Position numbers and translations under genes: made by a program. DNA of 64,000 nucleotides from Bacillota bacterium. GTDB lineage: Bacteria; Bacillota; SHA-98; Ch115; JABLXJ01. The stretch spans positions 1 to 64,000 of the forward strand of contig JABLXJ010000006.1 of assembly GCA_013178125.1 (NCBI GenBank), given 5' to 3'. Under the pieces are notes generated by a model, which saw only the letters and a list, made by a program, of their open reading frames with translations, made no database searches and was not told the origin of the DNA. Within the stretch, counting starts at the first letter, position 1. Each line of letters begins with the position of its first letter. Shown here piece by piece: positions 2,814-12,375 of this stretch.

Positions 2814-3160
2814 TTTCTTGCCACGCATAAGGTGTGGGATAAGAAAGTATCCAATGTCAGCTTCATCCGCTCCACACGATGTCTGCCATCAGCATTGTCT
2901 ATCGGGAACAGTGCTGGCCATTAGCACTGTTCGTTGGGAATAGTGCTGACCATTAGCATCATCCGCCAGTAACAGTGTTAGCCATTAGCATTGTCCGCCG
3001 AGAACGATGCTAGCCATTAGCATCGTCCATCGAGAACAGTGTTAGCTATTAGCATCATCCGCCGGGGACAGTGCTTGCCATCAGCATCGTCATCGTCCGT
3101 CGGGAATGATGCCTGCCACCAGCATCGTTGCCCATCCCAAGGGTTATGCGTGCTAAGAAA
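2814..3160 (+). repeat. Array of about eight 32-bp hairpin repeats closed by a long inverted repeat
   Basis: From about 2875 to 3140 there are eight degenerate units of about 32 bp, each an imperfect palindrome of the kind CGATGCT-AGCCATT-AGCATCG followed by a spacer like TCCGCCGAGAA. Arms vary together: CAGTGCT/AGCACTG in one unit, CGATGCT/AGCATCG in another. Several mismatches are G:U-compatible on the plus strand. The array is closed by an inverted repeat: TTTCTT (2814-2819) with AAGAAA (3155-3160), CACGCATAA (2822-2830) with TTATGCGTG (3144-3152), and TGGGAT (2835-2840) with ATCCCA (3134-3139). No open frame is conserved. The strand is assigned from the G:U pattern. The same architecture recurs near 12 kb. 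Confidence 0.8.
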
Positions 3161-11176: not shown

Positions 11177-11846
11177 GAAATCCTACCCTCACCTTGCTCC
11201 TTCGTCTGTTGTAGAGTCTACCTCGAAAATAAATATTACCCCAGCTAAAGCCATTTTCATTCTCTGGTGGTGCCGCCTGGGCGGCATGCGGGTCTGTCTA
11301 CTCCGAAATAATCCAATCACTTCCAGAGGTATTTCCATTCTCCATAGCGCTATGCCGACGCACAGAGATCTACTCAAAATAGCTCTATAAAGGTCATCTG
11401 CATCCTCTATCGGTGCCACCGCAGGCAGCATGAAAGCCTATTCTACCTTAAAGGTCTATTCTACTTTAATTGTATCGCTACTAGGTATCGATTCCATATG
11501 TTCATAATTAATTATTCTATAGCTTACCGAGAAATCCTTCCTTGGTACCGCAAAAACAAAAACATCTGACCATCTCACCCGATATCTCTGACTTCCTCAT
11601 AATACTACTTTGTTAGGTATGGACAAAAGGCCAGCTAAATGGCATATAGGATAAAGATGGGGTACTTATGGGGGATAAACATTAAAACCACACCCTATCC
11701 TATATACGGGATATACAAGGCCATTGAACGGTACTTTGGCCTGTGCAGGCGAGAGGAAAGCATCTGGTCGCTTTGTCGATAGGTCGTCGGATTATTGGCT
11801 GATGTTGCGCCTAAAACCTGTCAAGGGATTGCTGATGCGGTTCCTC
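11177..11846. other. Intergenic, no gene seen
   Basis: AT-rich leader region of the LacI gene. Short open frames here lack ribosome sites and family features. TTCTACCTTAAAGGTC and a second TTCTACTTTAA are direct repeats near 11440-11470 and may be part of the promoter region; I cannot place -35/-10 boxes with confidence. Confidence 0.4.
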
Positions 11847-12178
11847 AACTTATGATATAGATTTCCATATTGCTGCCAGGATTTGAGTACACCCCATCCC
11901 CCATCTTTTATCCCTCATCCCTTACCATGCTGCAGCTTGCAGCATATTTTCTGAAAACATGCTGCAAAGAGTAGCACATCTTTTAAAAACATGCTGCAGT
12001 CTACAGCATGTTATCTTAAAGATATGCTGTAATGAGTAGCATCGCTATCCCCGATGCTGCAGATTGCAGCACATCCCGCCAGAACATGCTGCGTAGTGCA
12101 GCATGTTTTTCAAAGATATGCTGCATGGGGCGGCACGTCCAACCTCTGGTAACAATATGGAAGTTTGTATCATAAGTT
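11847..12178 (+). repeat. Second array of 32-bp hairpin repeats closed by a long inverted repeat
   Basis: Seven units of 30-33 bp (11926 to about 12136) share the form CATGCTGCAG-n-TGCAGCATG plus a spacer like TTTTTCAAAGA. Arms are perfect in some units (CATGCTGC/GCAGCATG) and G:U-tolerant on the plus strand in others (TGCTGC/GTAGCA, TGCTGC/GCGGCA). The closing repeat is 33-35 bases: 11847-11880 (AACTTATGATATAGATTTCC and on) against 12143-12178. Most of its mismatches are also G:U on the plus strand. Unit length and overall plan match the array at 2814-3160, although the sequences differ. No ORF is conserved. An RNA of nested hairpins is the simplest reading. Confidence 0.8.
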
Positions 12179-12375
12179 AAGTATTACGTAATGAAGACGT
12201 TGGGTATCACCAAATCGCCTTTGTAAGACTTTAACAGCGTTTAAAAATGCTATCCGCCGATGCATCGAAAGATTTAGACCAATGAACTTTATGACCCTTA
12301 GGATTGGTTATGATATCCTACTTATGATCCACGTTTTTTGCCAATCCTGCTTATCGATTTCCACCTCTCGGAGAT

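Follow-up and report, generated by a model that had tools for sequence, protein, structure and literature searches.

A probable MITE-like foldback element with a variable palindromic minisatellite in an uncultured Bacillota bacterium

Modular elements already described and the architecture of E1

The BrickBuilt and 464/PgRS elements of Porphyromonas gingivalis are MITEs that carry internal tandem direct repeats variable in number (PMC4596501), and the BOX elements of Streptococcus pneumoniae are built from two end modules, variable internal tandem modules, and a stem-loop (PMC3049150). The eukaryotic Foldback elements, represented by FB, Galileo, and Tetris, are mostly of the Mutator type and generate target duplications of 8 to 10 bp (PMC4079207).

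In this work, we focus on E1, a copy of an element family designated F2, located in a window of 64,000 nucleotides (positions 1 to 64,000 of contig JABLXJ010000006.1) of an uncultured Bacillota bacterium whose nearest named record, as judged by DnaE, is isolate AS04akNAM_80 (91%). The features of E1 and of the related sequences are collected in Table 1.

Table 1. Coordinates of E1, its parts, and related features (positions without a contig handle refer to the window; C2 and C8 are contigs of the same genome)
Feature	Position	Strand	Remarks
Array 1, F1 copy	2819-3156	+	TTAGCAC ends, TAGCAYYGTCC units
IS701-like (DDE_5) insertion sequence, 5' remnant	11600-11843	+	homology to other copies ends at 11839-11844
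Whole F2 element, copy E1	11844-12181	+	338 bp, non-coding, foldback architecture
E1 left terminal inverted repeat	11844-11879	+	CTCAACTTATGATATAGATTTCCATATTGCTGCCAG
E1 pyrimidine-rich spacer	11880-11925	+	from left terminal repeat to units
E1 palindromic units	11926-12139	.	n=7, each of about 32 bp with two dyads
E1 right terminal inverted repeat	12146-12181	-	CTGGTAACAATATGGAAGTTTGTATCATAAGTTAAG
Second long F2 copy	C2:115215-115627		about nine units
Shorter F2 copy	C8:1164-1440		about five units
IS4-like insertion sequence	C8:139123-141427		ends CTGGACTTATGATAT / CTGGACTTTTGATAT; broken DDE_Tnp_1 / IS4 transposase

The terminal inverted repeats of E1 span 36 bp, with 30 of the 36 positions paired (83%), and the first 18 bp of the left one are conserved among F2 copies. 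The units start near positions 11926, 11958, 11990, 12023, 12053, 12085, and 12117, i.e., with a spacing of 30 to 33 bp, although tandem unit counts may be off since the assemblies are drafts (54 contigs for the genome harbouring E1). The unit cores are ATGCTGC..GCAGCAT palindromes, and further palindromes lie between the units. Nine dyads were counted, compared with 2.6 in mononucleotide shuffles (maximum 6), and their spacing is mostly 15 to 16.5 bp or a multiple thereof, with a recurrence of about 16 bp. A preliminary description of this DNA had recognised seven units of 30 to 33 bp with palindromic GCTGC..GCAGC cores and a closing inverted repeat, and both were recovered, the latter at the positions given in Table 1. 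With palindromic modules of about 32 bp enclosed by 36-bp terminal inverted repeats, the whole element amounts to one long imperfect hairpin, a structure that each strand is predicted to adopt: the plus-strand RNA fold reaches -148 kcal/mol, compared with -80.5 +/- 4.9 for shuffles (z -13.9), and the minus-strand fold has a z of -11.3. No ORF of more than 47 aa overlaps E1. The units show no similarity to the terminal repeats of their own family, and the possibility that units derive from a terminal repeat was rejected for F2, whereas it holds partly for F3 and marginally for one F1 end (these families are presented below).

Dispersal of F2 and its sister families

Similarity and pattern searches, which yield lower bounds, revealed about eight further F2 copies in the genome harbouring E1, either full-length or truncated, on contigs C2, C8 (three copies), C1, C12, and C3 (two copies). 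Apart from the two listed in Table 1, these copies are truncated or degenerate (C1, C12, two on C3, and two on C8). E1, E2, E3, and E10 share 87% to 89% identity outside indels and possess about seven, nine, five, and four units, respectively. A complete copy of 208 bp, about 89% identical over its length, is present in G003, a genome from another family of the same order; the pyrimidine-rich spacer is shortened in this copy and is also found in E2 and E3. F2 carriers number 2 out of the 398 genomes sampled from the phylum, namely, the genome harbouring E1 and G003, the 396 others giving none; in G001, which belongs to the same genus, a convincing copy is absent and a single weak 27-bp match was noticed. 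No relatives were found in phages and plasmids, and the terminal-repeat pattern was absent from named genomes and matched viral contigs twice, both times inside unrelated coding-like sequence.

The genes flanking the F2 copies are unrelated (TPR protein/GntR, aldolase/HTH, ROK, RF2, POR, radical SAM, CobA, PIN, Rrf2). An F2 end in the genome harbouring E1 (L030) and an F3 end in the sister genome (L077) both precede the same radical-SAM gene, at positions that almost coincide. On C8, a lone CRISPR-like repeat, GTCGCGCCCCACGCGGGCGCGTGGATTGAAACC (about 150475-150509), directly precedes a truncated F2 copy (C8:150518), beyond which lie two more palindrome arrays that differ in sequence; a fourth array of palindromes, GTGACGTACGTCAC, is located at about C8:150600-150900.

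Array 1 of the window is a copy of the F1 family, which is represented by copies of two to about nine units in the same genome and by shorter ones in G001, where GACTTGTT on both sides of a copy constitutes an 8-bp target duplication. The F3 family, with CTGCCAA units, has many copies in both genomes. Three of its seven complete copies are flanked by exact target duplications (TCATTGTTA, GACTTGAATT, and GGACATAAAATC; 9, 10, and 12 bp), while none of 42 swapped flank pairs displayed a duplication of at least 8 bp, and a fourth F3 copy carries the 8-bp duplication GAATCTAT. At an orthologous intergenic site (L047, L187), F3 ends are found in both the genome harbouring E1 and the sister genome, long in one and reduced to a short remnant in the other. 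Solo F3 ends in G001 (C73, C160, and C47) were considered as autonomous transposons, which was rejected because, judged by eye, no transposase-like ORF adjoins them. F1 and F2, though unrelated in sequence, both have a dyad spacing close to 16 bp, but the spacing is irregular in F3 arrays, so that a general rule of an approximately 16-bp pitch is not established.

The genomes of this group of uncultured bacteria contain at least three families built on one plan. The initial view of a dispersed family, as opposed to a single accident, is borne out by the F2 copies across contigs and in G003, and the search for more arrays returned these together with the F1 and F3 copies instead of merely two arrays. 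Copies differ in unit number but retain both the closing inverted repeat and the length of the units.

In other respects, a HEARO RNA (RF02033, 106.9 bits) is located at 2351-2563, preceding array 1 by about 260 bp, and looks like a solo copy since no Pfam family matches the 350-aa ORF immediately before it. A further dispersed intergenic repeat (CCATTTTCATTCTCTGGTGGTGCCGC..GCGGCAT) is present at 11218-11383. G001 contains at least six partial matches to it, and sequence resembling it recurs within some F3 arrays as well as within the IS4-like insertion sequence.

Insertion site and candidate mobilising insertion sequence

The 240 bp to the left of E1 match the start of a DDE_5 transposase element that G001 and G003 carry, termed IS701-like here from its DDE_5 domain, the domain alone being tested. 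Since this match stops at the boundary of E1, the element has its left end within the gene of another transposase. The interrupted gene does not resume in the right flank, which fits a later rearrangement of the site and the missing target duplication there. E1 had previously been placed between two sugar-type operons; it is in fact situated between the IS701-like remnant and unannotated DNA. Among the F2 copies, no exact target duplication was found, E2 having a near-match (TAATATTT/TAATGTTT). Target duplications, the sign of insertion that the preliminary description proposed to look for, are therefore present in sister copies (8 to 12 bp in F3, 8 bp in F1) but absent at E1. Its other proposed sign, an empty site, was not recovered in clean form: the E1 locus was not found in G001 to G003, and, in the sister locus of one F3 copy, the entire intergenic stretch is missing.

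With regard to mobilisation, the IS4-like insertion sequence on C8 is bordered by a perfect 9-bp target duplication, ATACTGGTA. Its assignment to the IS4 family is provisional, as its transposase scores just above the Pfam cut-off for the domain and well below that of NCBI for the IS4 model. The F2 ends match its end in register at 13 to 15 of 18 positions (14 of 18 for the left end of E1), and 13 of 18 positions are matched by the F3 end. Since this insertion sequence came to light through a search for ends resembling those of F2, the match is a preselected one, while its standing as an insertion sequence end is independent. The similarity to F2 is confined to about 18 terminal bases, hence F2 cannot be derived from it by simple deletion. 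The terminal 126 to 127 bp of this insertion sequence occur at contig ends, four times in G003 (L212, L214, L216, and L218) and once in the genome harbouring E1 (C30:16888-17014), as expected for a multicopy insertion sequence that breaks assembly. These ends are 100% identical in two bacterial families, which suggests either a recent spread of the insertion sequence or an assembly shared by related metagenome bins. The assemblies, which are interrupted at this insertion sequence, yielded no intact transposase bordered by exactly F2 ends.

Interpretation and comparison with known systems

The reading that we favour, with a probability of roughly 0.77, is that E1 is a non-autonomous MITE-like foldback element with a variable internal palindromic minisatellite, probably mobilised in trans by IS4-type transposases. 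This reading draws on the dispersed copies, the conserved ends, the gain and loss of modules, the unrelated neighbourhoods, the end located inside a transposase gene, the duplicated target sites of the sister families, and an insertion sequence of IS4-like type having nearly the same end and a 9-bp duplication. As in MITEs, E1 is short and devoid of a transposase gene, is bounded by terminal inverted repeats, and has dispersed copies at unrelated sites. With regard to the other MITE features, a target duplication is clear in F3 and F1 copies, approximate in E2, and lacking in E1, and the ends, but nothing more, resemble those of an element of the same genome whose transposase is broken in the copy read. 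An IS4-type transposase would act in trans on the F2 ends, modules would be gained or lost by slippage or hairpin-mediated recombination, and the element would have no conserved host function. A broader and rather unlikely version supposes a foldback superfamily whose members combine related ends of the IS4 type with unrelated palindromic minisatellites converging on a selected dyad pitch of about 16 bp; this pitch, and not the sequence, could serve, for example, transposase or nucleoid-protein assembly or cruciform formation.

The near 16-bp spacing shared by F1 and F2 despite unrelated sequences would also suit an array of sites for a host DNA-binding protein involved in silencing, partition, or nucleoid structure, the transposon-like ends only spreading it, since a half-pitch of 16 bp and a pitch of 32 bp (about 1.5 and 3 helical turns) would set the sites on fixed faces. 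We regard this as improbable in view of the irregular spacing in F3 and the patchy distribution within the phylum. The very stable fold, the closing-repeat mismatches that are all transitions, and two terminator-like hairpins on the plus strand would instead point to a structured non-coding or cis-regulatory RNA from this strand, kept by selection on RNA pairing. Such selection was implied by the G:U deviations on the plus strand noted in the preliminary description, but it is not supported by the mismatch types, which are balanced in a strand-symmetric fold of E1 (8 G.T and 9 A.C) and in the arms of the three F2 copies with both ends (12 and 11), and which number 49 and 34 when nine copies from the genome harbouring E1 and the G003 copy are pooled (binomial p 0.12). 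The closing repeat of E1, whose mismatches had been described as mostly G:U on the plus strand, has four G.T and two A.C. The likeness formerly drawn between arrays 1 and 2 (the latter being E1) stands for plan and differing sequence, but is not supported for a strand bias. All 23 arm mismatches in the three copies are transitions, which is weak evidence as the copies share ancestry and transitions are also common around them (roughly 63% to 89% of substitutions between copies and in surrounding DNA or neighbouring remnants). Furthermore, the minus strand folds about equally well, no neighbour genes are common to the copies, the unit number varies, and no Rfam family exceeds its gathering threshold, the sub-threshold matches being eukaryotic miRNA noise; such an RNA is hence quite improbable.

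Tandem, intergenic, multi-copy palindromes also recall REP/BIME or REPIN-type arrays mobilised by a Y1 (RAYT) transposase. Y1_Tnp (PF01797) was nevertheless unmatched in the draft assemblies of the genome harbouring E1, G001, and G003, in which positive controls matched, and long terminal repeats and the target duplications of sister families are not REPIN features, which makes this origin very improbable. An assembly artefact or a chance repeat, conceivable in a draft where tandem arrays can collapse, can hardly account for independent copies on several contigs and in another genome, or for folding z-scores of -11 to -14.

The coexistence, in a small uncultured Bacillota clade, of at least three MITE-like families that follow one modular plan of palindromes, and with a candidate mobilising insertion sequence at hand, offers a natural system for asking how palindromic minisatellites originate within transposons and are maintained there. 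It is also a warning that intergenic hairpins of very high stability and array-like form, when met in metagenome assemblies, may represent mobile DNA and not RNA genes.

Compared with the systems described so far, F2 resembles the BrickBuilt/464 elements in that their terminal repeats resemble those of resident insertion sequences and that long stem-loops are predicted, and F1 to F3 resemble them in forming several families with similar ends and unrelated interiors (PMC4596501). Their target duplications are irregular, and their units measure 23 or 41 nt, with ends matching ISPg1/ISPg9 and not an IS4-like insertion sequence (PMC4596501). In F2, by contrast, the units are themselves palindromic with a dyad pitch of about 16 bp, the ends resemble an IS4-like insertion sequence, and neither ends nor units correspond to the GAGACCTTTGCA ends and 23-nt bricks that characterise BrickBuilt. 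BOX elements likewise have ends resembling an insertion sequence (ISSpn2), but boxB hardly pairs with the ends (PMC3049150), whereas the whole F2 array can pair into a hairpin. Eukaryotic Foldback elements share with F2 a non-autonomous nature, terminal inverted repeats, and internal tandem repeats of variable number; however, their repeats lie inside the terminal repeats and may derive from them (PMC4079207), while F2 units are unlike their own termini and F3 units show some similarity to theirs. With IS4-type insertion sequences, F2, which carries no transposase, has the ends alone in common, the outermost 18 bp being nearly the same as in the resident one, which has a 9-bp duplication. In the portions of the literature available to us, we found no described precedent for a tandem array of units palindromic throughout whose dyad pitch is nearly equal in two families that are unrelated in sequence. 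By analogy with these systems, E1 is best described as an unusual variant of already known element designs.
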